A stretch of 45,433 bases of DNA from Gemmatimonadota bacterium (GTDB taxonomy: Bacteria > Gemmatimonadota > Gemmatimonadetes > Palauibacterales > Palauibacteraceae). The notes under the pieces were generated by a model that made no database searches, was not told the DNA's origin, and was given only the letters and a program-made list of their open reading frames with translations. Position numbers and translations under genes: made by a program. The stretch covers positions 1-45,433 of the forward strand of contig JAOTZH010000005.1 of the NCBI GenBank assembly GCA_029861425.1. The letters are read 5' to 3'. Positions 8,695 through 45,433 of this stretch are shown piece after piece; the stretch's first letter is position 1, and the number at the start of each line of letters is the position of its first letter.

Positions 8695-9717
8695 ATGTCT
8701 CTGGTCGCACTTACAGATGTAGTCAAGACCTTCGATGGCGTTCGCGCCGTCGACGGAGTGTCCTTCGACATCGACCGCGGTGAGGTCGTCGGGTTTCTGG
8801 GGCCGAACGGTGCTGGCAAGACGACGACGATGCGGCTGCTAACGCAGTATCTCGAAGCGGACTCGGGGTCGATCGTGATCGATGGTCAGGCACTCGGCGA
8901 TCATCCTGCCGAGTTTCGCCGTCGCATCGGCTATCTGCCGGAGACCAATCCCCTCTACACGGACATGCTCGCGGGCGAGTACATCACCTTCATGGGGCGG
9001 CTGCGAGGCATGTCGACGGACGAGATCACTCGACGAACGGATGACGTCGTCGCCCAGACCGCGATCGAGGACGTCTATTACCGGCCGATCGACGAGCTGT
9101 CGAAGGGGTACCGGCAGCGTGTCGGACTCGCCCAGGCGATCCTGTCCGAGCCGGAGATTCTGATTCTCGACGAGCCCACCGAGGGGCTCGACCCGAATCA
9201 GCGCGTGGAGATTCGTTCGCTGATCACCCAGCTGGGTGAGGACCGAACGGTGCTGCTCAGCACGCACGTCATGCAGGAGGTTCGGAGGACCTGTTCACGG
9301 GTCGTCATCATCAACCGGGGCGAAATCGTCGCCGATGGCGAGGTCGACGAGCTGGTCGACGCGAGCCGTGGCGGCAGCCGGGTCACAGTCGAGCTCGAGG
9401 GCCGGGCAGAGGACGTCCGCGGCGCATTGGAATCGCTCGAATCGGTTCGACGGGTGAACGGAGAAGAAAGCCCGGCGGGCCGAGCCCGGTTCTCGCTGAT
9501 CGGTGATGGCGACCCGCGGCGTGAGATCTACGATCTGGCGGTCGGACGGAATTGGCCGCTCTGGGAGCTCCATATGGAGCGCGCGAGCCTCGAGGACCTG
9601 TTCCGCAAGCTGACGGTCGAGCGCGATGAGACGGCGACGGCGGATCCGACCGCACTCGACCCGGCGCCGATCGACGACAACGCGACCGACGAGATGGAAG
9701 GCGAGGTGGAAGGATGA
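8695..9717 (+). CDS. ABC transporter ATP-binding protein, GldA/CcmA type
   Basis: A 340-aa cytosolic ATPase. Walker A is GPNGAGKTT at residues 36-44, the signature is a variant LSKGYRQRV, and Walker B is ILILDEPTEGLDP followed by the H-loop STHVMQEV. The C-terminal 100 residues are the extended regulatory tail seen in ABC-2/GldA-type ATPases. It pairs with the next gene, with which it overlaps by four bases (ATGA at 9714-9717). In Bacteroidota the GldA-GldF-GldG complex is needed for gliding, but in most other phyla the same set occurs without gliding genes. The transported substrate is therefore unknown, perhaps a lipid or surface polymer. Confidence 0.92.
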   Translation: MSLVALTDVVKTFDGVRAVDGVSFDIDRGEVVGFLGPNGAGKTTTMRLLTQYLEADSGSIVIDGQALGDHPAEFRRRIGYLPETNPLYTDMLAGEYITFMGRLRGMSTDEITRRTDDVVAQTAIEDVYYRPIDELSKGYRQRVGLAQAILSEPEILILDEPTEGLDPNQRVEIRSLITQLGEDRTVLLSTHVMQEVRRTCSRVVIINRGEIVADGEVDELVDASRGGSRVTVELEGRAEDVRGALESLESVRRVNGEESPAGRARFSLIGDGDPRREIYDLAVGRNWPLWELHMERASLEDLFRKLTVERDETATADPTALDPAPIDDNATDEMEGEVEG

Positions 9718-11951
9718 TCCGGCGTATCGGGACCATCGTCCGCCGGGAGCTGACCGGCTACTTCGATCACGCGACCGCCTACATCCTGTTGGTTGTCTTC
9801 CTCGGCGTGAACTTCTTCTTCTTCTTCCAGAGCGCCTACGAGATCGGCGAGGCATCGCTTCGCCCGATGCTCGGGTTGCTGCCGTGGCTCCTCCTGTTCT
9901 TCGTCCCCGCGGTATGCATGAGATCCCTGGCGGAGGAGCGACACGCCGGCACGCTCGAGTTGGTGCTGGCGCAGCCCATTTCCGTCGGCGAATTCCTCGT
10001 CGGAAAATATCTGGGCGTCTACGCCTTTCTGATGATCGCGCTGCTCGCCACGGTAGGCGTCCCGCTCGGCCTGTCGAGAGGCGCGGACCTTCAGGCCGGG
10101 GTCATCTTTGCCCAGTACGTCGGAGCGTCGTTTCTCATCGCCGCGATGGTCGCGATCGGTCTCTGGGCGTCGTCGATGACCAAGAACCAGGTGACGGCCT
10201 TCATTCTCGGCGTGACGGTCTCGTTCACGCTCTACGTCGTCGGGCTCGAGGTGGTCGTCCTCAGCCTTCCGGCGTCACTCTCCGTGCTTGCTGGCAGACT
10301 GGGGATTCTCGGGCACTTCCAGAACGTCGCGCGTGGCGTGATCGACCTGAGGGACGTGCTGTACTTCGCCTCGGTCACCGCCGCGTTCCTGTCGCTCACG
10401 TACTTCTCGCTGATGCGCGAACGGTTGAGCAAGGAGAGGGCGTCGTACAACCGACTCCGCCTCGGCGTCGCCGGGATGCTCGCGTTCTCGATCGTCGCGG
10501 CGCTGGCCGGTGGCCAGATCCGAGGCCGGATCGATCTGACGCCCGGCAAGCTCTACACCCTCTCCCAGCCGACCCGGGACCTGGTCGCCGGACTCGACGA
10601 CCTCGTGACGATCAAGTTCTTCCGTTCTGACGAGTTGCCGCCCGAGATCGCGCCGATCCGTCGGGACATCGATGACCTGCTGCGGGATTTCGACTCGGCG
10701 GGCGGCACGAACCTCAATCTGGTCCAACTCGATCCGGACGGTGATCCCGACGCCCTCGCCGAAGCGCAGACGCTCGGAGTGCCCGCGGCCGAATTCAACG
10801 TGATCGGGGATCAGGAGCGGTCGACCCGGCAGGGCTACCTCGGCGTCGCCATACAGTATGCGGGCCAGACGGACGTGATCCCGCTCGTGCGCCGGACGCA
10901 GGACCTCGAATACCGGCTCGCGTCGATGATCCGGACGATGACGGAACAGGACCGCCCCGTCGTCGCCATCCTGGAGGGTCACGGCGAGTTCAGCGGCACG
11001 AACAACATGACCATCGGCGTCGGTCGGCTGGCGGAGGAGTACAGTGTCCAGCGGCTCACGCTGGACACCACGCTGACCGCGGTTCCCGACTCGATCGACG
11101 TCATCGTGGTCGCTGGACCGGCCACGCCGTTCAGCTCCGAAGAGGGGCGGCTCGTGGGCCAGTTCCTCGACCGGGGCGGCAGCGTGTTGCTGATGCTCGG
11201 GGGGACTCGAGTGGACCCGCGCTCGCGCATGGCGGCGCCGGCATTTTACCCAGTCCTCGATTCGCTGCTGACGAGCCGGGGGCTCGGTGTGCTCCCGGCC
11301 GTCGCATATGACGTGAGCTCGAACGATCCGATCCCGATGCAGACGGCCGGCGGCTACGTGATCCAGCAGTACCCGCTCTTCCCCATGGCCTGGCCGGCGT
11401 CGGACCACCCGATCCTCGAGGGGGACAACACGGTCAGCATGAGGTGGGTGAGCCCGCTCTTCATGGAAAACGCGGACTCGACCCGAGTCACGCCGCTCCT
11501 CGTCACGACGGAGTATGGCGGGAGGTTCCAGGCTCCGGCCTCCGTGGAACCGGATCTCGACTGGAACGCGATCATCGACCCCGACGTGCTCGAGCCCCAG
11601 GTCCTCGCGGCCGCCTATCAGGACGACGTCGGGGGCAGGCTGGTGGTCGTCGGTACCCAGGCCATCGTCGAGGATGGTGTGATCCAGTCGACTGCCAACG
11701 GTCTCGCGGGTCTCATCTTCTTCCAGAACGCGGTGGACTGGCTGGCCCAGGATGAGGCTCTCATCTCGATTCGGTCGAAGGACCGGGCGCCTCCACAGCT
11801 GCTGTTCCAGAGCGCGTTCATGCGTGACGCGGCAAAGTGGGGGAATCTCGCGGGCGTTCCGCTTCTCTTCGTTCTGCTCGGCATTGTCCGGCTGGCGCGC
11901 CGCCGCGGGCAACAGCGACGTGCATACGAGCCGGGAGGAGCCATCCTGTGA
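9714..11951 (+). CDS. ABC-2 permease fused to GldG-like domain (GldF-GldG fusion)
   Basis: A 745-aa protein joining two modules that are separate in gliding bacteria. Residues 1 to about 240 are an ABC-2 permease (GldF-like) with six hydrophobic helices. After a further helix near residue 245 comes a large extracytoplasmic GldG/ABC_transp_aux domain, beginning around IDLTPGKLYTLSQPT. It ends with one more helix (GVPLLFVLLGIVRL) and a basic tail. The permease start overlaps the ATPase stop by four bases, and its own stop overlaps the DUF4340 start by four bases, so the three products are probably made together. By family it is the membrane part of an ABC exporter or a machine acting on the periplasm. 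Confidence 0.9.
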   Translation: MIRRIGTIVRRELTGYFDHATAYILLVVFLGVNFFFFFQSAYEIGEASLRPMLGLLPWLLLFFVPAVCMRSLAEERHAGTLELVLAQPISVGEFLVGKYLGVYAFLMIALLATVGVPLGLSRGADLQAGVIFAQYVGASFLIAAMVAIGLWASSMTKNQVTAFILGVTVSFTLYVVGLEVVVLSLPASLSVLAGRLGILGHFQNVARGVIDLRDVLYFASVTAAFLSLTYFSLMRERLSKERASYNRLRLGVAGMLAFSIVAALAGGQIRGRIDLTPGKLYTLSQPTRDLVAGLDDLVTIKFFRSDELPPEIAPIRRDIDDLLRDFDSAGGTNLNLVQLDPDGDPDALAEAQTLGVPAAEFNVIGDQERSTRQGYLGVAIQYAGQTDVIPLVRRTQDLEYRLASMIRTMTEQDRPVVAILEGHGEFSGTNNMTIGVGRLAEEYSVQRLTLDTTLTAVPDSIDVIVVAGPATPFSSEEGRLVGQFLDRGGSVLLMLGGTRVDPRSRMAAPAFYPVLDSLLTSRGLGVLPAVAYDVSSNDPIPMQTAGGYVIQQYPLFPMAWPASDHPILEGDNTVSMRWVSPLFMENADSTRVTPLLVTTEYGGRFQAPASVEPDLDWNAIIDPDVLEPQVLAAAYQDDVGGRLVVVGTQAIVEDGVIQSTANGLAGLIFFQNAVDWLAQDEALISIRSKDRAPPQLLFQSAFMRDAAKWGNLAGVPLLFVLLGIVRLARRRGQQRRAYEPGGAIL

Positions 11952-12898: not shown

Positions 12899-14323
12899 TC
12901 AAACCAGCCCTGGCTCCGTCATCGCACGAAAATCGAGGATCTTGTCGAGCTCGTCAGCCTCCACGAGGCCTTCCTCGAGGATGAGCTCGCGCAGGGTCCG
13001 ATCCTCCTTGAGCGACCGTTTCGCGATTTCGGCAGACTTGTCGTATCCGATCACCGGCACCAGAGCCGTCGCGAGAGCCGCCGTCGACTCCACGTTGCGT
13101 CGACAACGCTCTTCGTTCGCGGTGATCCCGTCGACACATCGCTCGGCGAATTCCACCGACGCAGTCGCGAGAATCTGAATGCTCTCGAGGACGTTATGCG
13201 CCATCACCGGGATCATCACGTTGAGCTCGAAGACTCCTGACTGGCCGCCGACTACGATGGCGGCGTCGTTTCCGATCACCTGCGCACATACCTGAAGGAC
13301 CGACTCGGCCATCACCGGATTCACCTTCCCCGGCATGATCGAAGACCCGGGCTGCACGGCGGGCAAGTCGAGCTCTCCGAGCCCCGTCCGCGGCCCGGAG
13401 GAAAGCCAGCGGAGGTCGTTGGCTACCTTCGTGAGGCTGACGGCGACTGTCCGTAGCGCTCCACTCGTCTCGACGACCGCATCGCGTGCGGACTGCGCCT
13501 CGAAGTGGTTCGAAGCCTCCCGGAATTCGGTGTCGAGCAGAGACGAAAGACCGTCGGCCATTCGACTTCCGAACTCTTCGTGCGTGTTGATGCCGGTACC
13601 GACCGCGGTGCCGCCGATCGCCAGCTCCGCCAGCGCACCGCGTGCGCCCTCGACCCGCCGGATCCCGTTCGCGACCTGGGCCGCATACCCTGCGAACTCC
13701 TGCCCGAGGCGCACGGGCGTCGCATCCTGCAAGTGCGTGCGACCGGCCTTGGCGATGTGGTCGAACTCGTCGGCCTTCGCGGCGAGCGAATCCCGGAGCT
13801 TCGCGAGGGCCGGCAGCAGCTCGCGGTCGATCGCGACCAGTGTCGAAACGTGCGTCGCGGTCGGAATCACGTCGTTGGACGATTGACCCATATTCACGTG
13901 ATCGTTCGGGTGCACCGGGTCGCGGGACCCGACCTCGCCGCCGAGCCGCTGGATCGCCCGGTTCGCGATCACCTCGTTCGCGTTCATGTTGGTGGAGGTG
14001 CCCGACCCTGTCTGGAAGATGTCGAGGACGAAGTGGTCGTCGAGCTCTCCTTCCATGACCTCGGTGGCGGCCGCACGGATAGCCTCGGCCCGCTCCGCGT
14101 CGAGGAGACCGAGATCCTCGTTGACCGAGGCAGCCGTCCGCTTGATCGCGCCGAGCGCCTCGATGAACCGTCGACCGAATCGAAGCTTCGAGATCGGGAA
14201 ATTCTGCCGGGCCCGCTCCGTCTGCGCGCCGTACAGTCGATCGCCGGGTATGTGCATCTCGCCCATCGAATCGCGCTCGACGCGCACCTCCGGGGCGTGG
14301 TCGATGTCGGTGGCTCCCGTCAC
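12899..14323 (-). CDS. fumC: Class II fumarate hydratase
   Basis: A 474-aa soluble enzyme of the fumarase/aspartase superfamily, catalysing fumarate plus water to malate in the TCA cycle. Visible are the N-terminal substrate region GDRLYGAQTERARQNF, the AGRTHLQDATP segment containing the conserved His, and the flexible signature loop GSSIMPGKVNPV near residues 325-335. GTG 14323 has an AGGAG site about ten bases upstream. The length matches the 460-475 aa norm. Aspartate ammonia-lyase is the main alternative, but the KVNPVMAE context and overall pattern favour fumarase. It is followed upstream on the same strand by the DUF192 gene, 49 bp away. Confidence 0.93.
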   Translation of the reverse strand: MTGATDIDHAPEVRVERDSMGEMHIPGDRLYGAQTERARQNFPISKLRFGRRFIEALGAIKRTAASVNEDLGLLDAERAEAIRAAATEVMEGELDDHFVLDIFQTGSGTSTNMNANEVIANRAIQRLGGEVGSRDPVHPNDHVNMGQSSNDVIPTATHVSTLVAIDRELLPALAKLRDSLAAKADEFDHIAKAGRTHLQDATPVRLGQEFAGYAAQVANGIRRVEGARGALAELAIGGTAVGTGINTHEEFGSRMADGLSSLLDTEFREASNHFEAQSARDAVVETSGALRTVAVSLTKVANDLRWLSSGPRTGLGELDLPAVQPGSSIMPGKVNPVMAESVLQVCAQVIGNDAAIVVGGQSGVFELNVMIPVMAHNVLESIQILATASVEFAERCVDGITANEERCRRNVESTAALATALVPVIGYDKSAEIAKRSLKEDRTLRELILEEGLVEADELDKILDFRAMTEPGLV

Positions 14324-34788: not shown

Positions 34789-36828
34789 TCAGGCCGTGGC
34801 GGCGACCGACTCCTCGACGAGGACGGATCGGCGCAGATCCGTCGCGAACATCGTCCGCGTGAACTTGCCGAGCCCGGCCGCGTGGTCCCCGAACGTCTCG
34901 ACCCGGCGCTCGAGCGCGACCCGCCGGTCCTCGAGCAGCGTCGTCTCGAATGTCAGCGCAGTCTCGAACCGGTGCTCGACGAGATCCGTCGTGTAGCCGC
35001 GAGCCTTCCAGCCCTCGACGTCGAACTCCGTCGTCCAATCCGGACTCGCGGCCAGGCTCTCGGTGAACGGTGACGAGAGCATCACCGCGCGCAGGTAGTC
35101 CATCACGGCGGTGAGCGCGTTCTGCGTCTCCTCGTCATCGGCATCGACCGATGCGAGCTGCCGGGAGATGCCGAGGTGCAGGAAGTCGAGCGCCTCGTCG
35201 GTCACCATGAACCGGCCGATCATCGAGTAGTTACTAAGCAGGTTGCCACCGACGGTCCCCTCGACGAGCTCGTCATAGTGCTCCTTCGACCAGGCGACGC
35301 ACTCCTCCCGCGTGTCGAACAGCTCGTCCTGAGTCTCCTGGACGTAGTCCGCGATCATCTCGCGAAATGCCTCGGGCGCATCGTCGAGCATTGCCTGGAG
35401 CGCGAGGATCTGGTCGAACGCCTCGATTCCCCGGCGGCGGGCGAACGCGAAGGCCTCCTCGAAGTTGCCCTCGTAGAAGAAGATCGTGAGCAGGAGGTGG
35501 AAGACGCGGCACTCGAGGTAGTCCTCGAACGGGAGAGTCGGCGTTTCGACGACCACCTCTTCGGTCTCGATCACCTTGGAGCCCGTGTAGTCGCCGATAT
35601 TCCGGGCGACGACGCGGTGACGCGTCTGGAAGCCGAACTTCTCGCGCGTCTCCGGATCCGACAGCGGCGCGCCGTGGAGCAGCATGAGCTGGTGAGCCGA
35701 GACCCGCTTCACGCCCGTCGCGAGGAGCTGCTTCACCGAGGTGAGGAACGACTCCTTCGTCTCGCCGGGCAGCCCGAGGATCAGCTCGCCGTACGCCTGC
35801 ATACCCTGGGCGAGGACCTCGTCCTGGATCTCGGCGTACGCGTCGAGGCTGATGTTCGATCGCTGGATGTTCTCGAGTACCACCGGGTTCAGGGACTGCA
35901 CGGCCGACGTCATGGGGAGCACCCCCCGCGCCTTCCGCATCACCTTGATGATTCGGTCGCTGCGGTTCTTGCCCGTTGTCGTGCGGATGTAGTGCGGCCA
36001 GCCGAACTCGTCCTGGAGGTGCGCGACGTAGTCGGCGATCTCCTCGTCCCAGGGGTACATGCCGAAGTTGTCGTCAGCGAAGCAGAGCGGGGTCTCCGGC
36101 TTCACGCGCTCGGCGATGTAGCGCAGATCGGCGATCACGTTCTCGACCGAGTGCCGGTAGGCCTTGCTGTTCGTTCGAACGGACGAATTGCAGAACTGGC
36201 AGGTGAACGGACAGCCGCGCGTGATCTGCATCAGAGGGAAGTAGCCCGTATCGAAGTACGGGTCCATCAGGCCCGCCGCGTACGGCGACGGGATGTCGTC
36301 GAGCTCGGTGATCCGGTCGACCCACCCGCCGTCGACGAAATCGCCCCCGTTCGGATCGATCCAGACACTGCCGGAGAGCGGCTCGTCGAACAGGCCGCCC
36401 TTCCCCGTCTCGGCGAACCTCTCGAGGAAGTTCAGGAACGCCCGCTCGCCCTCGTACGTCGGCCCACGAACGTGCAGATCAATCGACGGTATCGTTCGGA
36501 TCCAGCTCTCCTGCTCGTCCCTCGTGAGCGGGAAGTTCGGTCCGCCCATGAGCGTGATCGTCTCCGTGGAGCGCGCCTTCACGTACTGGGCGAAGTGGAC
36601 GGACAGGTTGTGGTTCCAGGCGTAGGTGCTGAACCCGACCACGTCCGGCGGCGAGGCGTCGATCGCCGCCTTGAACTCGTCCGGCTCGCGGAAGATGCGG
36701 ATGTCGAGATCGTCCACGTCGGCGAGATGCGCCTTCGCGTACGTCGCCAGGTTCGCCACGCCCAGCGGATACGTATCCGAGCTGATCGTGAGGAGATTAT
36801 GTCCGAGGTCCGCGAGGAATACTTGCAC
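34789..36828 (-). CDS. Cobalamin-binding-domain radical SAM enzyme
   Basis: A 679-aa cytosolic enzyme. Residues 1-125 have the B12-binding fold layout of class B radical SAM proteins (PPDVVGFSTYAWN, then LMGGPNFP). The 4Fe-4S site is GCPFTCQFCNSS, with Cys206, Cys210 and Cys213, and the remainder includes GELILGLPGETKESFL. About 200 C-terminal residues beyond the barrel are helical and acidic and unlike the core. Class B enzymes often methylate unactivated carbons or phosphinates, but other chemistry occurs. It is transcribed away from the QHNDH locus across a 119-bp gap. Its GTG 36828 has a weak AGGG site. Confidence 0.85.
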   Translation of the reverse strand: MQVFLADLGHNLLTISSDTYPLGVANLATYAKAHLADVDDLDIRIFREPDEFKAAIDASPPDVVGFSTYAWNHNLSVHFAQYVKARSTETITLMGGPNFPLTRDEQESWIRTIPSIDLHVRGPTYEGERAFLNFLERFAETGKGGLFDEPLSGSVWIDPNGGDFVDGGWVDRITELDDIPSPYAAGLMDPYFDTGYFPLMQITRGCPFTCQFCNSSVRTNSKAYRHSVENVIADLRYIAERVKPETPLCFADDNFGMYPWDEEIADYVAHLQDEFGWPHYIRTTTGKNRSDRIIKVMRKARGVLPMTSAVQSLNPVVLENIQRSNISLDAYAEIQDEVLAQGMQAYGELILGLPGETKESFLTSVKQLLATGVKRVSAHQLMLLHGAPLSDPETREKFGFQTRHRVVARNIGDYTGSKVIETEEVVVETPTLPFEDYLECRVFHLLLTIFFYEGNFEEAFAFARRRGIEAFDQILALQAMLDDAPEAFREMIADYVQETQDELFDTREECVAWSKEHYDELVEGTVGGNLLSNYSMIGRFMVTDEALDFLHLGISRQLASVDADDEETQNALTAVMDYLRAVMLSSPFTESLAASPDWTTEFDVEGWKARGYTTDLVEHRFETALTFETTLLEDRRVALERRVETFGDHAAGLGKFTRTMFATDLRRSVLVEESVAATA

Positions 36829-36947: not shown

Positions 36948-37277
36948 ATGGACTTCACCGATCTGGACGAGTGGAAAGCGTACTGTCAGCAGGCGGCTAC
37001 AGCCACGGGCGACAGCGGCGTCCTGTCGGTCGACTGGGCGGGCGCGGGGATCACCCCTCCGCCGGCGCGCGGAGACCTGGTGGCGAGGGTGCCGCTCGAT
37101 CGGGCGCTCGAGCTGGCGGACGAAGCGGAGGGGCTCGAGGGGGACGAGCGCCGCGCGAAGCTGGAGGAGGCGATCGCGTGGTTGGAGTGCCCGTTCCCTC
37201 GCACCCCGCCTGAGCTCCTGACCGCGATTCTCCGGCGTCGAACCGCGCTCGTGACACGCGCGAGCGGGGACTCCTAG
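36948..37277 (+). CDS. Unknown 109-aa protein at the head of the QHNDH operon
   Basis: A soluble acidic protein with no signal peptide or membrane helix. It begins MDFTDLDEWKAYCQQAA and has a Glu-rich helical centre (ALELADEAEGLEGDERRAKL) and a Pro-rich turn (CPFPRTPPELL), with Cys at 13 and 80. ATG 36948 has a GAGG only three bases upstream, and no other start in the frame works. The stop TAG (37275-37277) touches the TTG start of qhpG, so it is translated with that gene. I do not recognise it. Its position suggests a cytosolic helper of CTQ cofactor maturation, such as a chaperone or scaffold for QhpC; this is inference. Confidence 0.68.
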   Translation: MDFTDLDEWKAYCQQAATATGDSGVLSVDWAGAGITPPPARGDLVARVPLDRALELADEAEGLEGDERRAKLEEAIAWLECPFPRTPPELLTAILRRRTALVTRASGDS

Positions 37278-38819
37278 TTGTTCGATGTAGTGGTGGTGGG
37301 GGGCGGTCCCGCCGGCGCCTCGACCGCCGCTCTTCTCGCATCCTGGGGACACGCTGTCACTCTCCGGAGTCGCTCGGACCCGCCCGCCGGATGGCTGGCC
37401 GAGTCGGTTCCGGCCTCCGCGATGCGTCTGTTCGGGATGGTCGGCGCCGACGACTCCCTCGCTCGATCCGTCCTCTTCCCCAATGGGGGCAACACGGTCT
37501 GGTGGGCAGGTCGCCCGGAGCGATCCGAGTCGTTCGATGACCCCGGCTTTCACGCGGAACGATCGGCGCTCGAGAACGCCCTGATCCCGCAAGCCGAAGC
37601 GCACGGGGCCGCGGTCGGACGCACCGCCCCGATCCGGGCCGCGTCCCGCGATGAACGGGGGTGGACCCTCGAATGGGCCGACGGCGAGACGCGCGGCTCC
37701 TGGCTCGTCGACGCATCCGGTCGGGCCGGCGTGCTTGCCCGACGAACGCGAATCGAGGACCGGCCGACGGGTACGCTGGCCCTCGTGGGCCGCTGGCGGC
37801 GTGCGGGCGGCTGGGACGAGGCCGACCGCACACACACACTCATCGAGAGCTACGCCGATGGATGGGCCTGGTCTGTGCCGATCTCGGACGAGGTGCGCTG
37901 CGTCACGGCGATGGTGGACCCGCGCGAGACCGAACTCGACCGGGGGGACCTCGACGCGATGCTCAGGCGTGAGCTCGCCAAAGCGCCGAACCTCGGGGCC
38001 CGGCTCGAGGGCGCCGTCACCCAGGACGACGCGAAGGCGTGTCCGGCCTCGCTCTACACGAACGAAGCGTTCGCCGGCGATGGGTATCTGCTCGTCGGTG
38101 ACGCGGGGTCGTTCATCGATCCGTTGTCATCCTACGGAGTGAAGAAGGCGCTGGCCTCGGGATGGCTCGCGGCGGTGACGCTGAACACGATCCTCACCGA
38201 CGAATCGATGAAGTCGACCGCGCTCGAGTTCTTCGACGCGCGGGAGAAAGAGGTCTACCGGCGGTATCGGGAGCTCTCGATTCCCTTCTTCGAGGAGGCG
38301 ACGGGCGAGTACGGGACGCCGTTCTGGGAGCTTCGAGCCGAGGCTGCGCGGCGCGCGTCGGGGGTCGACAAGGGCGCCACGTTCGAGGGCGCCCCGGTCG
38401 ACCCGGCGGATCGGGTCGACCCCTCGGGCGACGCGGATGCGCTCACGACCCACCGGGACGTCCGGGAGGCCTACGAGGAGCTCCGCAACAGGCCCGACAT
38501 CTCGCTGTCACCTGGCGACTCGCTCGAACGCGTGGATCTCCCGCTGATAAGCGACAACCGAATCGTCCTCGACACCCATCTCAGAAGCGCGACCGCGGGC
38601 GACGGCGCACGCTTCGTCCGAAACGTCGACCTCTTGAGGCTGATCGACGCGGCAGAGGGCAAGGACCAGGTTCCGGACGTCTACGAGGCGTACAACCGGG
38701 GCGGTCCGGCCGCCGAGCTGCCGGATTTCCTGGCGGCGCTCGCCGTCGCCGTCGGTAAAGGGTTTCTGGAGCTTCCAGACTGGCGTCCGACCTCGTGGAG
38801 TCGCACCATTTACGGATAG
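37278..38819 (+). CDS. qhpG: QhpG, FAD-dependent monooxygenase of CTQ biogenesis
   Basis: A 513-aa flavoprotein of the p-hydroxybenzoate hydroxylase class. It opens with the FAD motif FDVVVVGGGPAGASTA, has a mid-chain DASGRAG, and a second FAD segment YLLVGDAGSFIDPLSSYGVKKAL. The C-terminal 150 residues form an extra region. In proteobacterial QHNDH systems, QhpG adds two oxygens to the tryptophan of crosslinked QhpC, on the way to the quinone. The assignment rests on the fold plus position between this operon's small gene and qhpA. TTG 37278 is an unusual start, abutting the previous stop; no other start fits the FAD motif. The gap to qhpA is 58 bp. Confidence 0.87.
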   Translation: MFDVVVVGGGPAGASTAALLASWGHAVTLRSRSDPPAGWLAESVPASAMRLFGMVGADDSLARSVLFPNGGNTVWWAGRPERSESFDDPGFHAERSALENALIPQAEAHGAAVGRTAPIRAASRDERGWTLEWADGETRGSWLVDASGRAGVLARRTRIEDRPTGTLALVGRWRRAGGWDEADRTHTLIESYADGWAWSVPISDEVRCVTAMVDPRETELDRGDLDAMLRRELAKAPNLGARLEGAVTQDDAKACPASLYTNEAFAGDGYLLVGDAGSFIDPLSSYGVKKALASGWLAAVTLNTILTDESMKSTALEFFDAREKEVYRRYRELSIPFFEEATGEYGTPFWELRAEAARRASGVDKGATFEGAPVDPADRVDPSGDADALTTHRDVREAYEELRNRPDISLSPGDSLERVDLPLISDNRIVLDTHLRSATAGDGARFVRNVDLLRLIDAAEGKDQVPDVYEAYNRGGPAAELPDFLAALAVAVGKGFLELPDWRPTSWSRTIYG

Positions 38820-38877
38820 GGTCGCGCCGAAGTGGTCCAACCCACGGGCGTTCTTCGACTCGCGAATCGGAGGATCG

Positions 38878-40614
38878 ATGCACCGTCGTGTTCGTCTCCT
38901 CGGCCTGGCCGCCGTCGCCGCTACAGGCGCGGTCGCCATGACCGCGGCCTCTGGCCCGGATCCCGTCCGGGGCGGGACGCCGATCGCTCTCGCCGACCTG
39001 CCTCAGGCCGACGAGGGCTATCCAATCGAGAACGAGACGATCGTCGCCCGCTGTGAGCGGTGCCACGAGCAGGACGACGAGGGGCGCCTGACCCGCATCT
39101 CCTACGAGCGGAAGACGCCGGAGGGGTGGCAGACGTCGCTCCGGCGCATGGTCGCGCTCAACGGTCTCGAGATCACGCCCGAGGAAGCCCGCGAGGTCGT
39201 CCGGTATCTCGCGAACAACCAGGGCCTTGCCCCCGAGGAGCTCGAGCCCGGCCGTTTCGAGGTCGAGAAGCGACTGATCGATCACACCTACGAGGCCGAT
39301 CCGCAGGTCGAGTGGACCTGTATCCAGTGCCACAGCATGGGCCGGGTGATCACGCAACGCCGCACGCGCGAGGAATGGGAGCTTCTGCTTGCGACTCACC
39401 GCGGTCTCTACCCGCTCGTCGACTTTCAGGCTTTCCGGCGAAGCGGCCCGGCCGAACCGGGCGAGGACGGCGCGCCCGCAGATTCTCGTCACCCGATGGA
39501 CAGGGCCGTCGACCACCTGTCCGCTGTCTTCCCGCTCGACACACCGGAGTGGTCGGCGTGGCGGGCGACGATGCGTCCGCCGCGCCTGGCCGGGTCCTGG
39601 ACGCTCCGGGGCTACGAGCCGGGCAAGGGTCCGCTCTACGGTACCGTGACGATCACTGGCGGCGCGGCGGATGACGAGTTCGACACGACGGCCGATTATA
39701 CCTACGCCGAGACCGGTGAGCGGGTCACCCGCGCCGGATCGGCGCTCGTCTACACCGGCTACCAGTGGCGCGGCCGCACGAACCCGGGCCAGGCCGACGA
39801 ACTCCGCGAGGTCATGGCCGTCGAGCGCGGCTGGAACGAGATGACGGGGCGCTGGTTCACCGGTGCCTACGACGAGCACGGCCCCGACGTCACGCTCACC
39901 CGCGCGATGGGCGCGACGCTGATTTCGGGTGTCTACCCCGCCGTCCTGGAGCGGGGCTCGAGCATGTCACCGGTCACGGTCTACGGCTCGAACCTGCCGG
40001 CCCTTGCGTCCGATTACGACTTCGGTCCGCTCGTGATGGTCGTCTCCGCGAGCCCCGCCGGTGACGGCAACTCCATCCAGCTCGAGGTCAGCGTCGCGAC
40101 CGACGCGCCGATCGGCGCGCACGACCTGTTCGCGAACGGCGCGAACGGCGAGGGCGCGCTCACGGTCTACGAAGGCGTCGACCGGCTCGAGGTCACACCG
40201 GCCACCGGCATGGCCCGCGTGGGGGGGGCGAACTTCCCGAAGGGGTATCAGACGTACGAGGCGATCGGCTGGAGCGACGGCGCCGACGGCGAATCCGAGA
40301 CTGACGATGACATCAGGCTCGGCCGCGTCCCGGTCACGTGGAGCATGGAGGAGTACTCGGCTACGTTCGAGGACACCGATATCCAGTTCGTGGGGACGCT
40401 CGACCAGACCGGCGTGTTCACCCCGAACGACGACGGCCCCAACCCCGCGCGGGAGGGCGATCGCAACAACGTGGGTGACGTGTGGGTCGTGGCGTCCTAC
40501 GACCGAGGTGCGGAGCGTGCGCTTCGTGCTCGCGCCCACCTGCTGGTGACGGTTCCGCTCTACATGCGGTTCGACCCATGGCAGGAAGCGCCGCCGACGA
40601 GGCTCGTGCCATGA
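38878..40614 (+). CDS. qhpA: QhpA, quinohemoprotein amine dehydrogenase alpha subunit (diheme cytochrome c)
   Basis: A 578-aa periplasmic subunit. ATG 38878 has a GGAGG site and a signal peptide runs to about residue 25. Two c-type heme sites are present: CERCH at 59-63 and CIQCH at 148-152, together with the QHNDH-specific stretches WQTSLRRMVALNG and FEVEKRLIDHTYEADP. The rest is made of beta-sandwich domains that surround the gamma subunit. It passes electrons from CTQ to an external acceptor such as a cytochrome or cupredoxin. The protein is somewhat longer than the roughly 500-aa proteobacterial forms. Its stop overlaps the qhpD start by four bases (ATGA). Confidence 0.95.
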   Translation: MHRRVRLLGLAAVAATGAVAMTAASGPDPVRGGTPIALADLPQADEGYPIENETIVARCERCHEQDDEGRLTRISYERKTPEGWQTSLRRMVALNGLEITPEEAREVVRYLANNQGLAPEELEPGRFEVEKRLIDHTYEADPQVEWTCIQCHSMGRVITQRRTREEWELLLATHRGLYPLVDFQAFRRSGPAEPGEDGAPADSRHPMDRAVDHLSAVFPLDTPEWSAWRATMRPPRLAGSWTLRGYEPGKGPLYGTVTITGGAADDEFDTTADYTYAETGERVTRAGSALVYTGYQWRGRTNPGQADELREVMAVERGWNEMTGRWFTGAYDEHGPDVTLTRAMGATLISGVYPAVLERGSSMSPVTVYGSNLPALASDYDFGPLVMVVSASPAGDGNSIQLEVSVATDAPIGAHDLFANGANGEGALTVYEGVDRLEVTPATGMARVGGANFPKGYQTYEAIGWSDGADGESETDDDIRLGRVPVTWSMEEYSATFEDTDIQFVGTLDQTGVFTPNDDGPNPAREGDRNNVGDVWVVASYDRGAERALRARAHLLVTVPLYMRFDPWQEAPPTRLVP

Positions 40615-42068
40615 CCCCTGCGGTCGCCGAGCCGGGCGCGATGGCGCCCATCGCCCTCCGCGAGTTCCACCCGTTCGAGGCGGCCGGAGAGCGCTACGTC
40701 TACATGGTGCCGTCCGCAGGCGTCTTCAAGCTCGACGACCCGTCGGCGGCCGTGATCGACGCCTTGTCGACCGGGCCGCGGATGCCGGACGACATCGTGG
40801 GCGAGCTCTCGGGCCGCTTCCCCGAAGAACGCCTCCGAGAGACGCTCCAGGAATTGGCCGGGATCAAGGCGGTCGGCACCGCGGACGCGCCACGCGAAGA
40901 GGTCGTGAACGACCTGCCGCCGGAGGGGTTCCCTCTCACCACGATGGTCCTGAACGTCACGAACAAGTGCAATCTCGCCTGCACGTACTGCTACGAGTAC
41001 GGCGAGGACAAGATCGTCGATACGACGTTTGGCGATCAGCCGAAGTTCATGCTCGACGAGACCGCGCGGGACAGCGTCGAGTTCCTCCTGAAGGAATCCG
41101 GCGATCTTCCCGTCGCGCACCTGACCTTCTTCGGCGGCGAAACGCTGCTCAACTTCCCTGTCCTCCAGGACACGGTCGCGTACGCGCGGAGGCGCGGCGC
41201 CGAGGTCGGGAAACGCATCGAGTTCAGCCTCACCACGAACGCCACGCTTCTCCGTCCGGACATCATCGAGTGGCTCGCCGAGAACGAGATCGGCGTCACC
41301 GTCTCGATCGACGGCCCGAAGGAGATGCAGGACCGCATGCGGGTCTTCCACAGCGGCCGCGGCTCATACGAGACGGTGCAGCCGAAGATCAAGGAGCTTC
41401 TGAGGAAGCACCGCACAAGGCCGATTGGCGCACGGGTCACGCTGACGCGCGAGAACCTCGACATCCGCCGGATCTACGAACACCTGAGGGAAGACATGGG
41501 GTTCTGGGAGATCGGGTTCGCGCCGGTCACGACCGACTCAGCGCGAGACTATGCGCTCGAGGACGAAGGGCTCGACGACATGCTCGGCCAGTTCGAGGAG
41601 CTGGCGTTCGAGTGGCTCGAGGCGGCGGTCGAGAACGAGCACCACGGGTTCTCGAACGTGAAGGACACGCTCGAGGAGATCCACAAAGGCGTAAGCAAGG
41701 CATACCCGTGCGGGGCCGGACTGGGCTTGCTGGGCGTGTCGACGGCCGGCGAGGTGAGCCTTTGCCACCGGTTCGCGGGATCGGACGATCACGGATTCGG
41801 CACGGTGACCGATGGGATCGATCGCGAGCAGCAGCGCGAGTTCCTCGAGGACCATCACATCAAGAACAAGACCGACTGCCACACGTGCTGGGCGCGCCCG
41901 ATCTGCTCGGGTGGCTGCTATCACGAGTCGCAGGTTCGGAACGGCTCGACGACCGGCCCGAACCTGCATTTCTGTACGTGGGTTCGGAGCTGGACGCATA
42001 CCTGTCTCGAGATCTACGGAGAGCTCGCAGAGCGGAATCCGGAGTTCCTCGCCAGGTTCGACGCCTAG
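40611..42068 (+). CDS. qhpD: QhpD, radical SAM/SPASM thioether-forming maturase
   Basis: A 485-aa cytosolic enzyme. Residues 28-90 resemble the PqqD-like peptide-recognition domain. The radical SAM cluster is TNKCNLACTYCYEYGE, with Cys120, Cys124 and Cys127, followed by FFGGETLLN. The C-terminal SPASM part has Cys in SLCHRF, TDCHTCWARPICSGGCYHE and HFCTW. In known QHNDH systems, QhpD makes the three Cys-to-Asp/Glu thioether bonds in the gamma subunit. ATG 40611 overlaps the qhpA stop; the long open frame upstream is antisense-like noise inside qhpA. qhpC lies 40 bp downstream with its own strong ribosome site. Confidence 0.95.
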   Translation: MTPAVAEPGAMAPIALREFHPFEAAGERYVYMVPSAGVFKLDDPSAAVIDALSTGPRMPDDIVGELSGRFPEERLRETLQELAGIKAVGTADAPREEVVNDLPPEGFPLTTMVLNVTNKCNLACTYCYEYGEDKIVDTTFGDQPKFMLDETARDSVEFLLKESGDLPVAHLTFFGGETLLNFPVLQDTVAYARRRGAEVGKRIEFSLTTNATLLRPDIIEWLAENEIGVTVSIDGPKEMQDRMRVFHSGRGSYETVQPKIKELLRKHRTRPIGARVTLTRENLDIRRIYEHLREDMGFWEIGFAPVTTDSARDYALEDEGLDDMLGQFEELAFEWLEAAVENEHHGFSNVKDTLEEIHKGVSKAYPCGAGLGLLGVSTAGEVSLCHRFAGSDDHGFGTVTDGIDREQQREFLEDHHIKNKTDCHTCWARPICSGGCYHESQVRNGSTTGPNLHFCTWVRSWTHTCLEIYGELAERNPEFLARFDA

Positions 42069-42108
42069 GACACGCGCCCGGGCGACTGACACGCAGGAGG
42101 AGAGTGTC

Positions 42109-42456
42109 GTGAAGCACTTGAAACCGATCAATCAGAAGGCGGGACGGATCGAGGCCCAGATCCAACGAGAGCTGGCAGCCGATGAGCTCGACGTAGTCGG
42201 GCTGGAGAGTCGTCCACCGGACGGGCCGCACATTCCGCTCGGATGCTCGCTCGTGTTCTTCCCGGGCTGGGAGGCCGACAGCCAGGGCGGCACCGCCGGC
42301 CTCTGCCAGCCGGTCGAGCGCGACTTGTTCGACTGCCACCTCGCGTGCTTCTGGCCCGCTCACGTGCCGGATCAACTGAACCACTCGGTCGACTGGACTG
42401 GCAAGTGCGCCTCGGCCCAGAAGGACTGGCGGAAGCTCGATCTGGTGTTCCCGTGA
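42109..42456 (+). CDS. qhpC: QhpC, quinohemoprotein amine dehydrogenase gamma subunit precursor (CTQ peptide)
   Basis: A 115-aa precursor of the catalytic subunit, too small to stand out without its motif. GTG 42109 has an AGGAGG site. Residues 1 to about 39 are a charged leader that QhpE would remove. The mature part carries the exact Cys/acid spacing of the crystallised gamma subunits: Cys46-Glu55, Cys66-Asp72 and Cys80-Asp88 as thioether pairs, and Cys76 with Trp82 as the cysteine tryptophylquinone. These equal Cys7/Glu16, Cys27/Asp33, Cys41/Asp49 and Cys37/Trp43 of Paracoccus. Differences are Phe81 where proteobacteria have a second Trp, and an extra Cys100. The stop overlaps the qhpB start by four bases. 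Confidence 0.95.
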   Translation: MKHLKPINQKAGRIEAQIQRELAADELDVVGLESRPPDGPHIPLGCSLVFFPGWEADSQGGTAGLCQPVERDLFDCHLACFWPAHVPDQLNHSVDWTGKCASAQKDWRKLDLVFP

Positions 42457-43568
42457 TCCGAAGCCGCCGTGCAGGAGTCTTCGCTGCCGCACTGATCGTC
42501 GCGGGGGTCCTCCTCCCCTCCACCGCGACGGCGCAGACGCCCGACTCGAACGCGCACTGGTACATCGCTACCTACACGAACGACGTGCTCGTGTGGGACG
42601 AGGCGAGCGAGCAGGTCGTCGACCGCATCTCGCTCCAGAACCGAATTCCGGTCTCGCTCACGATGTCGAAGGACGGCGAGCGGATGTACGCCTTGGATCC
42701 CTTCTTCGAGCGCATCGAGGTCGTCGATCTGGCGAGCGAAGAGACAATCGACGAGATCCGTCTCTCGCAGGCTCGCCGTACCGTTCGTCTGAATGGGTTT
42801 GCCCTCGATCCCGACGAGGAGTGGGCCATCCTCTTCGTGAAGTCGTACACGAAGGAGTCGGACCGCTGGATCGTCGAGGGGCCGTTCATGCTCAGGTACG
42901 ACCTCGCGAGGAAGGCCGTCACGGACACGATCCCCTACCCCGGCGATGAGATGCCCGACCGGGCGGGGTTCCGTCTCTCTCCCGACGGCGACGCCCTCTA
43001 CATCTTCGACGAGGCGCTCATCGCGCTCGACACCGAGACGTTCGAGGAGATCGATCGTTGGGAGATCTCCGAGCCCTTCGAGCCCGGCCTCGGCCCCATG
43101 TCGATCCCGTTCTCACGGAGCCCGTATCAGGAGGACAACGGCGTCTACACCGGGCTTTTCCGTGTGACGGACCCCGCACAGAACCGGCGCATGATGGGAA
43201 TCGCGACGGTCGACCTGAACAACCGCGAGGTCGACTTCGAGACGTTCGGTCCGAGCGAGGGCGTGAGCTTCGTGCTGTCGCCGGATGGAAAGACGGGATA
43301 CGGCCTCCGGTCCCGCATCGGGAGCTACGAGTTCTGGAAGTTCGACGTCGAAGGCAACCGGGTCGAGGCGCGCGTGCCGTTCGAGGGCCGTCCTCGGATG
43401 GGGCTCATGCCGAGCGCCGACGGTACGCGGCTGTTCATCTTCGTCGCCGGAAACACGATCGACGTGTACGACTCGCAGACGTTCGAGTATCTACGGACGG
43501 TCGAGCTGGATGAAGACATGACCGATGTAGTCGTGGTGCCTCAGGGAACGAGAGCCGGCGGGCAGTAA
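42453..43568 (+). CDS. qhpB: QhpB, quinohemoprotein amine dehydrogenase beta subunit (seven-bladed propeller)
   Basis: A 371-aa exported subunit. GTG 42453 overlaps the qhpC stop, and a signal peptide ends at STATAQT. The mature part is a YVTN-type propeller: HWYIATYTNDVLVWD, VSLTMSKDGERMYALDPF, FRLSPDGDALYIFDEAL, FVLSPDGKTGYGL and MPSADGTRLFIFVAG are blade-start strands. In QHNDH the beta subunit flanks the gamma subunit and contributes to the substrate pocket for primary amines. Its order right after qhpC is as in proteobacterial clusters. It ends 44-47 bp before qhpF, with an inverted repeat in the gap. Confidence 0.93.
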   Translation: MIRSRRAGVFAAALIVAGVLLPSTATAQTPDSNAHWYIATYTNDVLVWDEASEQVVDRISLQNRIPVSLTMSKDGERMYALDPFFERIEVVDLASEETIDEIRLSQARRTVRLNGFALDPDEEWAILFVKSYTKESDRWIVEGPFMLRYDLARKAVTDTIPYPGDEMPDRAGFRLSPDGDALYIFDEALIALDTETFEEIDRWEISEPFEPGLGPMSIPFSRSPYQEDNGVYTGLFRVTDPAQNRRMMGIATVDLNNREVDFETFGPSEGVSFVLSPDGKTGYGLRSRIGSYEFWKFDVEGNRVEARVPFEGRPRMGLMPSADGTRLFIFVAGNTIDVYDSQTFEYLRTVELDEDMTDVVVVPQGTRAGGQ

Positions 43569-43587
43569 CCGGGCCTGAGGGGCCCGG
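43569..43587 (+). repeat. GC-rich hairpin between qhpB and qhpF
   Basis: CCGGGCC (43569-43575) and GGCCCGG (43581-43587) form a perfect 7-bp stem with loop TGAGG, starting at the base after the qhpB stop. No T-run follows, so it is not a canonical terminator. It might protect the 3' end of the structural-subunit message or lower translation of qhpF, whose start 29 bp further on has no good ribosome site. Confidence 0.45.
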
Positions 43588-43615
43588 CCCCGAAAGTCCG
43601 GGCTCCCCGCCCGTG

Positions 43616-45361
43616 ATGGCAAATCCCAATCCCCTGAGAGACCCGCACCTTCGTCGGGCCCTGGCGTACGTCCGACCCTACGCGGGCGCGCTCGTCCCCG
43701 TCGTCCTGCTCTCGCTGGTCGGGACGGCGCTTTCGCTCATTCTGCCCTATCTGTCGAAGTCGATCGTCGACGATGCGATCCTGGCCGGGGACTTCGGGGC
43801 GCTGCTTCGAATCATCGGGCTATTCGTCCTGATCACGGCTCTGAGCTTCGGCGCGAACGTGGCGAGCGGGATGCGCTACACGAAGGTCTCCGCGGACATC
43901 CTGTTCGACATGCGGCTCGCCCTGTACCGACACCTGCAGAGGCTCTCTCCGCGCTTTTACGCCGGCCGGCCGCTCGGAGACATCGTCTCGCGGATCAACA
44001 ACGACATCGGCGAGATCCAGCGGGTGACGGCCGAGACCGCGCTTGCCTGGTTCGGGAACGTGCTGTTCCTGGTCGGGACCGTCGTGATGCTCGTCATCCT
44101 CGATTGGCGGCTCTTTCTCGTCGGCCTGCTGGCGCTTCCGCCCAGCCTGTGGGCGCTGGTCAGATACCGTCGGCAGCTCGAGAACCGCGTCCGCGATCTG
44201 CGGGAGCGCAGTGCCGACATAGGCACGTTTCTGATCGAGACCCTCCAGGGCATGAAGCTCGTCGTGGGCTCGAACGCGCAGGAGCGGGAGGTCGAGAGGT
44301 TCAGCGAACGAAACGACCGATTCGTGCGGGCGCTCCTCTCGATGCGCTGGTTCACCTATCTGGCCGGCGGACTGCCGGGGCTGCTCTTGCAGGCGGGGAC
44401 GGCGGCAGTCTTCCTGTTCGGCGGCTACCAGGTGATCCAGGGGCAGATGACGCTCGGGACGTTCGTGGCGTTCATGGCGTATCAGATGCGGCTGATGTCA
44501 CCCGTGCAGGCGCTGATGGGGCTGTACGCGAACCTGGCGAGCGCCCGGGCGTCGCTGGTCCGGGTCCACGAGCTACTCGACACACCACCGGAGGTGGTCG
44601 AGACGGCGGAGCCGCTGCGGCTCGGGGGAGCCGAGGGAATACTCGCGCTCGAGGACGTGCGATTCGGATTCGGACGCGGCGGCGCGGTGCTCGACGGCGT
44701 GTCGCTGACGATCCCCGCCGGCCAGGTGATCGCCGTCGTCGGGGCAAGCGGGAGCGGCAAGTCGACGATCGCCGATCTGCTGGTCCGCCAGCTCGACCCC
44801 GACGAGGGGATGGTCTCGCTCGACGGTCACGACCTTCGCCGCGTCTCGCTGTCGGACCTCCGGCGGCTGGTCGCGGTCGTCGATCAGGCGCCGTTCGTCT
44901 TCTACACCACGATCGGCGAAAACGTACGATACGCCCGCCCGGACGCGGACGACACGACGGTCGCCGCGGCCGTCTCCGCCGCCGCGCTCGACTCACTGGT
45001 GGACCGGCTCCCGAAGGGACTCGACACGACCGTCGGCGAGCGCGGCCAGCAGCTCTCGGCCGGTGAGCGTCAGCGGGTTGCCGTCGCCCGCGCGTTTCTG
45101 GCAGACCCGGCGGTGCTCGTCCTCGACGAGGCGACGGGGGCCCTCGATCCCGCCTCGGAGGGCGAGCTGCTCGCGGGATTCGAGCGGCTGATGCGCGGTC
45201 GAACCACGGTCTTGATCACCCACCGGCTCGACCTCGCCCGCCGGGCCGATCGCGTGGTGGTCATCCGCGACGGCCGGATCGCCCAGGATGGACCTCCCGA
45301 AGAACTCGGCGCGAAGCCCGGCGCGTTCCGCGACCTGTTCGCATCCGCGGGGTCGGCATGA
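43616..45361 (+). CDS. qhpF: QhpF, ABC exporter (fused permease and ATPase)
   Basis: A 581-aa protein: six membrane helices in residues 15-310, then an ATPase with Walker A GASGSGKST, signature LSAGERQRVAVARA, Walker B AVLVLDEATGALDP and the H-loop LITHRLDLA. This is the MsbA/peptide-exporter layout. In QHNDH systems QhpF is thought to export the matured gamma subunit, which lacks a standard signal peptide, into the periplasm. ATG 43616 (or GTG 43613 directly before it) lacks a clear ribosome site. Its TGA is at 45359-45361; an AGGAGG beginning at 45361 serves the next gene. Confidence 0.9.
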   Translation: MANPNPLRDPHLRRALAYVRPYAGALVPVVLLSLVGTALSLILPYLSKSIVDDAILAGDFGALLRIIGLFVLITALSFGANVASGMRYTKVSADILFDMRLALYRHLQRLSPRFYAGRPLGDIVSRINNDIGEIQRVTAETALAWFGNVLFLVGTVVMLVILDWRLFLVGLLALPPSLWALVRYRRQLENRVRDLRERSADIGTFLIETLQGMKLVVGSNAQEREVERFSERNDRFVRALLSMRWFTYLAGGLPGLLLQAGTAAVFLFGGYQVIQGQMTLGTFVAFMAYQMRLMSPVQALMGLYANLASARASLVRVHELLDTPPEVVETAEPLRLGGAEGILALEDVRFGFGRGGAVLDGVSLTIPAGQVIAVVGASGSGKSTIADLLVRQLDPDEGMVSLDGHDLRRVSLSDLRRLVAVVDQAPFVFYTTIGENVRYARPDADDTTVAAAVSAAALDSLVDRLPKGLDTTVGERGQQLSAGERQRVAVARAFLADPAVLVLDEATGALDPASEGELLAGFERLMRGRTTVLITHRLDLARRADRVVVIRDGRIAQDGPPEELGAKPGAFRDLFASAGSA

Positions 45362-45377
45362 GGAGGTCGAGGCCGAC

Positions 45378-45433
45378 GTGCGCCTGATTCCCATCGACCA
45401 CCCGGCGCTGCGTGAGCGCACCGGAAAGGGAGT
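45378..45433 (+). CDS. qhpE: Probable QhpE, subtilisin-like protease, N-terminal fragment
   Basis: Only the first 19 codons lie in the window. GTG 45378 follows an AGGAGG (45361-45366) by 11 bases. The translation VRLIPIDHPALRERTGKGV ends with the TGKGV stretch that precedes the catalytic Asp strand in subtilisins. By position after qhpF it would be QhpE, which cleaves the QhpC leader in the cytosol. The fragment is too short to be sure, and no catalytic residue is in view. Confidence 0.55.
   Translation, partial: MRLIPIDHPALRERTGKG

Follow-up and report, generated by a model that had tools for sequence, protein, structure and literature searches.

The window analysed here is a stretch of 45,433 nucleotides from a Gemmatimonadota genome (GenBank assembly GCA_029861425.1, contig JAOTZH010000005.1). 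At its right end, on the + strand of positions 37278-45433, we found the genes qhpG, qhpA, qhpD, qhpC, qhpB and qhpF and the first codons of qhpE (Table 1). The gene ends overlap or lie close together, with overlaps of 4 bases both between qhpA and qhpD and between qhpC and qhpB, and qhpG starts at the base right after the stop of a preceding orphan open reading frame (ORF). We are highly confident that this is an operon for a quinohemoprotein amine dehydrogenase (QHNDH), the enzyme with the cofactor cysteine tryptophylquinone (CTQ), and that it belongs to a second deep clade of this system, for which we coin the name clade II. Clade I is the type found in Pseudomonas, Paracoccus and Azospirillum. 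Clade II occurs in Gemmatimonadota, Acidobacteriota, Planctomycetota and some alphaproteobacteria (sphingomonads, Acetobacter and Phenylobacterium).

An earlier note on this DNA had named a diheme subunit with the motifs CERCH and CIQCH, a radical S-adenosylmethionine (SAM) protein, a gamma subunit, a propeller, an exporter, a flavin monooxygenase and the start of a protease, and all of these are present on the + strand. The note had begun the locus at 36948; the operon does lie within that span, which also takes in a 109-amino-acid orphan ORF (36948-37277) ahead of qhpG.

Table 1. Genes and features of the qhp operon, in positions of the window
Feature	Position	Strand	Basis
qhpG, homologue of flavin adenine dinucleotide (FAD)-dependent tryptophan dihydroxylase, 513 amino acids, TTG start	37278..38819	+	NF049967 best family; PF04820/PF01494
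qhpA, diheme alpha subunit	38878..40614	+	TIGR03908; four Pfam QHNDH alpha domains; PDB 1jmx_A, E 3e-78
First heme c motif, CERCH	39052..39066	+	read in QhpA
Second heme c motif, CIQCH	39319..39333	+	read in QhpA
qhpD, radical SAM/SPASM thioether-forming maturase	40611..42068	+	TIGR03906
qhpC, precursor of the gamma subunit, leader included, 115 amino acids from a GTG start	42109..42456	+	NF037958; PF08992
Extra Cys, QhpC residue 100 (position 61 of 1JMX gamma)	42406..42408	+	gamma alignment
Asp, QhpC residue 106 (position 67), proposed partner of Cys61	42424..42426	+	gamma alignment
qhpB, beta-propeller subunit, GTG start	42453..43568	+	TIGR03907 below cut-off; fold matches of AlphaFold2 model
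qhpF, ATP-binding cassette (ABC) exporter (permease-ATPase)	43613..45361	+	PF00664, PF00005
Start of qhpE, subtilisin-like leader peptidase, 18 codons from GTG	45378..45433	+	matches QhpE start in L035

Three proteins of the operon score well above the cut-offs of their families, in agreement with the earlier identification of the system as QHNDH. QhpA reaches 464.8 bits against TIGR03908 (cut-off 274.35) and contains PF09098, PF14930, PF09099 and PF09100. The Cys pair of each heme motif is kept in 115 of 116 aligned QhpA rows, in which locus L141 is counted twice; the remaining row, from Planctomycetota, is gapped. QhpD reaches 556 bits against TIGR03906 (cut-off 453) and has 10 Cys that are invariant across 119 aligned rows, again with L141 counted twice. 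QhpC reaches 122.6 bits against NF037958 (cut-off 50) and matches chain G of 1JMX with an E-value of 7e-21. In the numbering of that chain, which we use throughout, it carries C7, E16, C27, D33, C37, C41, W43 and D49, that is, Cys37 and Trp43 of CTQ and three Cys-Asp/Glu pairs.

The last two genes have counterparts in related loci. QhpF has matches of 53-80% identity at the equivalent place in loci of the phylum wherever any match was found. The start of QhpE in the window, ending in LRERTGKG, aligns with the start, ending in LRSRTGRG, of a QhpE (a subtilase, PF00082) in the same-genus locus L035, and same-genus loci have the longer QhpE.

Several results weigh against this assignment. QhpB scores only 63.3 bits against TIGR03907, below the cut-off of 223.2, and its best match by sequence in the PDB is an S-layer propeller and not a QHNDH chain. 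QhpG scores 209 bits against NF049967, below the cut-off of 240, though this is its best NCBIfam family, and in a PDB sequence search the halogenases 3e1t, 3i3l and 8zop outscore the solved QhpG (7ctq, E 1e-20). The QhpC of the window has neither Asp12 nor Asp39, two gamma residues that clade I generally has. Only 18 codons of qhpE are present and no qhpR is seen up to the contig end; because the window is the entire contig, neither can be read further. Four Gemmatimonadota loci (L055, L057, L084 and L085) lack one of the genes in the stretch examined or have it elsewhere. Finally, no measurement of activity came to light for an enzyme of clade II.

The low QhpB score was examined with an AlphaFold2 model built from a 41-sequence alignment (predicted local distance difference test, pLDDT, 88.8). 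When this model was compared with the PDB by Foldseek, the QHNDH beta chains 1jju_B and 1jmx_B were ranks 1 and 2, with E-values of 1.5e-21 and 7e-21 and template modelling (TM) scores of 0.72-0.79. Since QHNDH beta chains are the top fold matches, the low score reflects distance and not a wrong name. Scores below the cut-offs were also obtained for the other clade-II proteins tested (QhpB, five of five; QhpG, three of three), and the clade-I locus L155 exceeds both cut-offs, with 440 bits for QhpB and 403 for QhpG.

The sequences and models show which genes are present and to which families or folds they belong, both heme motifs, every residue needed for the known cross-links and for CTQ, and the clade. 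What kind of substrate is used, and which reactions take place in what order, would by analogy follow the characterised enzymes. Cross-linking of the QhpC precursor by QhpD (Cys7-Glu16, Cys27-Asp33 and Cys41-Asp49) would take place in the cytoplasm. QhpG would dihydroxylate Trp43. QhpE would remove the leader of QhpC, and QhpF would export the processed product. In the periplasm, Cys37 and Trp43 would become CTQ within the complex that QhpC forms with QhpA, which has the two hemes, and with the propeller subunit QhpB. This enzyme would oxidise primary amines, with electrons passing via the two hemes c to an outside acceptor. This cross-linking and maturation pathway is taken from passages of PMC7876137 and PMC8172795. 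The passages of PMC7876137 also mention a suggested catalytic role for gamma Asp33, a position that is Asp in 127 of 127 distinct gamma cores.

Phylogenetic trees support the separation of the two clades. The relatives named in this analysis come from a scan of genome contigs that kept the 80 best of its 492 confirmed places, so phyla with a more distant QhpD are not represented in the trees. For QhpA, a tree with 53 rows gives 100/100 both to clade I (14 rows) and to clade II (39 rows), and its 19 Gemmatimonadota rows form one clade (100/97). A quick QhpD tree of 109 rows gave 100 for clade I, 85 for clade II and 99 for the 33 Gemmatimonadota rows, and a more careful QhpD tree of 37 rows gave 100/100 and 100/98 for clades I and II. 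The Gemmatimonadota QhpA clade stands beside Acidobacteriota, which themselves do not form one clade. The alphaproteobacterial group of clade II is also beside Acidobacteriota rows, a position that fits transfer from Acidobacteriota.

One copy from Bryobacterales (L159, in the larger stretch L204) is intermediate, as its QhpA branches between clade I and clade II. With L204 added, the QhpA tree supports clade II with 86/89 and clade I with 100/100. In the first such tree, the root was upset by a 91-residue piece of locus L205, and no single branch, as drawn, set clade II apart; the support values given here are from the tree without that piece. The QhpA trees leave out rows of at most 420 amino acids (350 in the tree with L205) and many similar rows, and the QhpD tree leaves out rows of at most 350 amino acids, most same-genus rows, and L086, L089 and L091. 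Rows that came from gamma-model scans of Acidobacteriota, Planctomycetota, Pseudomonadota and Alphaproteobacteria, except L159, were assigned to a clade by phylum and sequence, not by tree.

The clades differ in the gamma subunit. We aligned gamma subunits on the 1JMX chain and, because some rows are near copies, give counts of distinct cores. The clade-I list holds L141 twice in per-group counts and in the tally of gene order, so that 43 there means 42 loci. Pooled gamma counts are by distinct row and include a typed 1JMX row; L187, a weak match with an internal stop, is excluded. The known modified gamma residues are kept in both clades (the row of L144 is without Cys7 because it was read with a shifted start). 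Position 61 is Cys in all 77 aligned clade-II loci and Ala or Val in all 42 clade-I loci. Once later rows are included, 106 of the 164 gamma rows, representing 81 of the 127 distinct cores, have Cys61, and the other 58 rows (46 cores) have Ala or Val. All 81 cores with Cys61 have C7, E16, C27, D33, C37, C41, W43 and D49, save for the Cys27 column in one odd row, L186.

Other positions vary with Cys61 to differing degrees. Asp67 is found in 81/81 cores with Cys61 versus 34/46 without it, Asp36 in 79/81 versus 0/46, and Asp or Glu at position 72 in 80/81 versus 9/46. The clades also differ at Thr23, Arg32, Asp36 and Asp72. Conversely, Asp12 and Asp39 are present in only 2/81 and 1/81 cores with Cys61, versus 45/46 and 46/46 without. 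According to passages of PMC7876137, these two residues belong to a set of acidic residues on the surface that is assumed to be turned towards QhpG. Clade-II QhpG is correspondingly distant.

The intermediate copy L159 has Cys61, Asp67 and Asp72 together with the clade-I-like residues Ala32, Gly36, Asp12 and Asp39. Because of this combination, Cys61 is independent of the other clade-II changes. The Cys61 pattern needs no more than a single change on the QhpA tree, placed either on the branch that leads to clade I or earlier. The odd row L186, from a divergent planctomycete (G646), also has Cys at position 61 in an unsure alignment, and by its QhpD (L205, a long branch) it lies outside both clades. 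This row leans towards loss of Cys61 in clade I, with the reservation that the alignment is unsure and that there is no good outgroup.

We counted Cys in the partner subunits after removing the first 30 residues of each matched stretch. In Gemmatimonadota, the gamma core has exactly five Cys in 45/45 rows, the mature beta subunit has none in 45/45, and the alpha subunit has four, at the heme positions, in 44/45. Cys61 is thus without a thiol partner in the Gemmatimonadota enzyme, because beta is free of Cys and alpha has only heme Cys. Outside this phylum, Cys occur in beta in 15/15 sphingomonad, 5/13 Acidobacteriota and 3/4 Planctomycetota rows. Three Planctomycetota alpha rows gave 3, 1 and 4 Cys by this count, and we draw no claim from them.

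The explanation we put first is that, in clade II and in the intermediate lineage, QhpD ties Cys61 to Asp67 as a fourth Cys-Asp thioether. We give this reading, together with the division of QHNDH into two deep clades on which it builds, about an even chance. Taken jointly with it, and so with the same even chance, the gamma subunit would have five internal thioethers including CTQ, and the characterised Pseudomonas and Paracoccus enzymes would be the branch without the extra bond. The spacing of 6 residues between Cys61 and Asp67 equals that of Cys27 and Asp33, the known spacings being 9, 6 and 8 residues. The strict association of Cys61 with clade II and with Asp67, the lack of a thiol partner within the Gemmatimonadota complex, and the fact that the remaining gamma Cys are all at known cross-link or CTQ positions also argue for a cross-link. 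Furthermore, QhpD already makes three such bonds, and passages of PMC8172795 describe six within a single peptide for the homologous enzyme PapB.

Other observations speak against such a thioether or its proposed partner. The rows share ancestry, and one change is enough to explain them on the QhpA tree. Asp67 is frequent without Cys61 too, and the residue at position 72 is an alternative partner. Outside Gemmatimonadota, beta Cys are present, and the alpha subunit of L204 has six Cys. The AlphaFold2 model of gamma is too poor for distances (mean pLDDT 52.5) and gave no fold match. Asp36 was considered as a partner and set aside: L159, which has Gly36, and the odd row L186 both have Cys61 without Asp36.

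A second explanation, which we consider a serious possibility somewhat short of an even chance, is that Cys61 is a free buried thiol that serves packing or tuning of the quinone site and forms no cross-link. There is no direct evidence for the bond, and the differences between the clades at Thr23, Arg32, Asp36 and Asp72 are what general repacking of the subunit would also produce. On the other hand, a strictly kept free thiol near a periplasmic ortho-quinone would, as general knowledge, be unusual, and the beta subunit of Gemmatimonadota is entirely free of Cys.

It is improbable that Cys61 forms a disulfide between subunits or molecules. Two conserved Cys in sphingomonad beta and one to three in some beta rows of Acidobacteriota and Planctomycetota could offer partners, but the Gemmatimonadota heterotrimer offers none, yet Cys61 is invariant there. 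A disulfide within the complex is excluded by the Cys counts for Gemmatimonadota only. Our literature searches found no paper that describes a fourth Cys-Asp bond or a clade II, which does not establish absence from print.

The closest characterised system is the QHNDH of Pseudomonas putida (1JMX) and the Paracoccus enzyme of 1JJU, with their qhp/pea operon. The window shares with them A, B, C, D, F, G and the start of E, both motifs for heme c, the full set of residues for CTQ and the thioethers, and the beta fold. It differs in that its QhpD is only about 37-42% identical, its QhpB and QhpG fall below the NCBIfam cut-offs, and its gamma subunit has Cys61, Arg32 and Asp36 and lacks Asp12 and Asp39. 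Loci of Acidobacteriota and sphingomonads (for example L081, Sphingobium scionense L099 and Novosphingobium RL4 L073) are also close and share the QhpA/QhpD clade, Cys61, Asp67 and the A-D-C-B core order. The sphingomonad loci differ in having two beta Cys and no QhpG over the threshold; in L073 and L099 (of the sphingomonads and kin L073, L099 and L101-L113), a divergent FAD protein below that threshold is encoded between qhpB and qhpF.

A further relative of QhpD is PapB, the ranthipeptide maturase that acts on PapA (freyrasin), and rSAM_PapB is the second NCBIfam family of the QhpD in the window. This radical SAM homologue makes several Cys-Asp thioethers per peptide (passages of PMC8172795), but its product is a short peptide, whereas that of QhpD is an enzyme subunit. 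Natural enzymes with an extra, strictly kept Cys that has no partner in Gemmatimonadota would allow a direct test of the way in which QhpD selects and counts the sites it modifies. Such a test is possible in strains that can be grown, namely Sphingobium and Novosphingobium.

QhpA scores over its cut-off in 75 of the 395 sampled Gemmatimonadota genomes and in 14 of 16 of the genus, counting the genome of the window itself. The gamma model is over its cut-off in 11/199 Acidobacteriota, 15/294 Planctomycetota, 7/398 Pseudomonadota and 7/337 Alphaproteobacteria. Comparison of these frequencies across phyla is only rough, because the query was alpha for Gemmatimonadota and gamma for the others, and because the centre genome, chosen for having the gene, is counted in all five samples. 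Read in this rough way, the figures for Gemmatimonadota and Pseudomonadota shift the view of which bacteria host the enzyme. Passages of PMC7876137 state that qhp genes occur in more than 1300 species and that their arrangement, order and strands vary.

The order G-A-D-C-B-F-E is the commonest in the phylum. In a tally of 127 loci, 27 of the 48 from Gemmatimonadota and 4 of the 13 from Acidobacteriota show it complete, and many of the remaining loci are cut by contig or locus ends. It also occurs in Azospirillum melinis (L155) and, by annotation, on a plasmid of Leisingera caerulea, and therefore the order is no mark of the lineage studied here. In Pseudomonas nitroreducens, too, G is the gene before A. 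Four Planctomycetota loci (L116-L119, including a record titled Candidatus Kuenenia stuttgartiensis) have D-C-B-E, plus A where the stretch reaches it; no qhpF is over the threshold within these stretches, and G, where found, is on the other strand.

The earlier note had placed the host in Gemmatimonadota, which is confirmed by exact stretches of 600 to 800 bases that three records titled Gemmatimonadetes share with genomes of the host's class (L086/G217, L091/G162 and L094/G067). A record titled Gammaproteobacteria (L089) likewise shares exact stretches with a genome in the host's class (G086), and we take its title as a mislabel. A search for a small-subunit ribosomal RNA gene in the host genome gave no match. 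The note had also proposed searches and trees with QhpA, QhpC and QhpD; the QhpA and QhpD trees each place Gemmatimonadota in one clade, with Acidobacteriota beside it in the QhpA tree.

The note's further view, that the operon had reached an unexpected lineage with a gene order unlike that of proteobacteria, where G would be distal, is hardly tenable: the enzyme was characterised in Pseudomonadota (passages of PMC7876137) and our literature searches turned up no paper on it in Gemmatimonadota, but its frequency in the phylum, the single Gemmatimonadota clade and the same order in Leisingera and Azospirillum refute it. The operon is instead an ordinary instance of a system already known, in a phylum that commonly carries it, and the new part would be the clade-wide change in the cross-linked subunit.

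Some related loci have unusual contents. A Bryobacterales genome (G402; L159/L204, L170 and L171) has three qhpC copies. One of its stretches, L204, holds A, C and B of the lineage between the clades, and no D, E, F or G was found within the 14 kb examined. L186/L205 encodes a very divergent gamma-like protein that has seven Cys in its aligned core and retains the CTQ region. Adjacent to it are a long QhpA-like gene and a QhpD-like gene. On plasmids of Bradyrhizobium barranii (L077, 7112-9780) and Embleya (L078), a QhpD-like radical SAM gene adjoins a QhpG-like FAD gene, labelled "tryptophan 7-halogenase" in L077. No qhpA, qhpB or qhpC was found in these two stretches, and in the QhpD tree the two stand on a deep branch of their own. 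The paired genes may encode a further protein-modifying system that acts on a different substrate.

The note had suggested that the amine substrates may be different; when the genes around qhp loci were scanned for hints of a substrate, no lead emerged. Among the 25 clusters listed, those with the widest spread resembled shadow ORFs of the qhp genes, and the others were common within the genus or to 4 to 9 loci, none of them annotated. The 109-amino-acid ORF has no Pfam or NCBIfam family, and we rejected it as a new operon member: a comparison with 86 other regions that lie upstream of qhpG, near copies among them, brought up no relative (best E 0.056). Divergent from the operon is a gene for a B12-binding radical SAM protein (34789-36828, - strand), which is nearest to KedN5-type methyltransferases, far below the cut-off of that family, and has no match in 40 loci of the phylum around qhp. 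Elsewhere in the window are genes for an S9 peptidase with a DPPIV-like part (194-2584, - strand), an ABC transporter pair consisting of an ATPase and a membrane protein (8695-11951, + strand) and a fumarase-type lyase (12899-14323, - strand).

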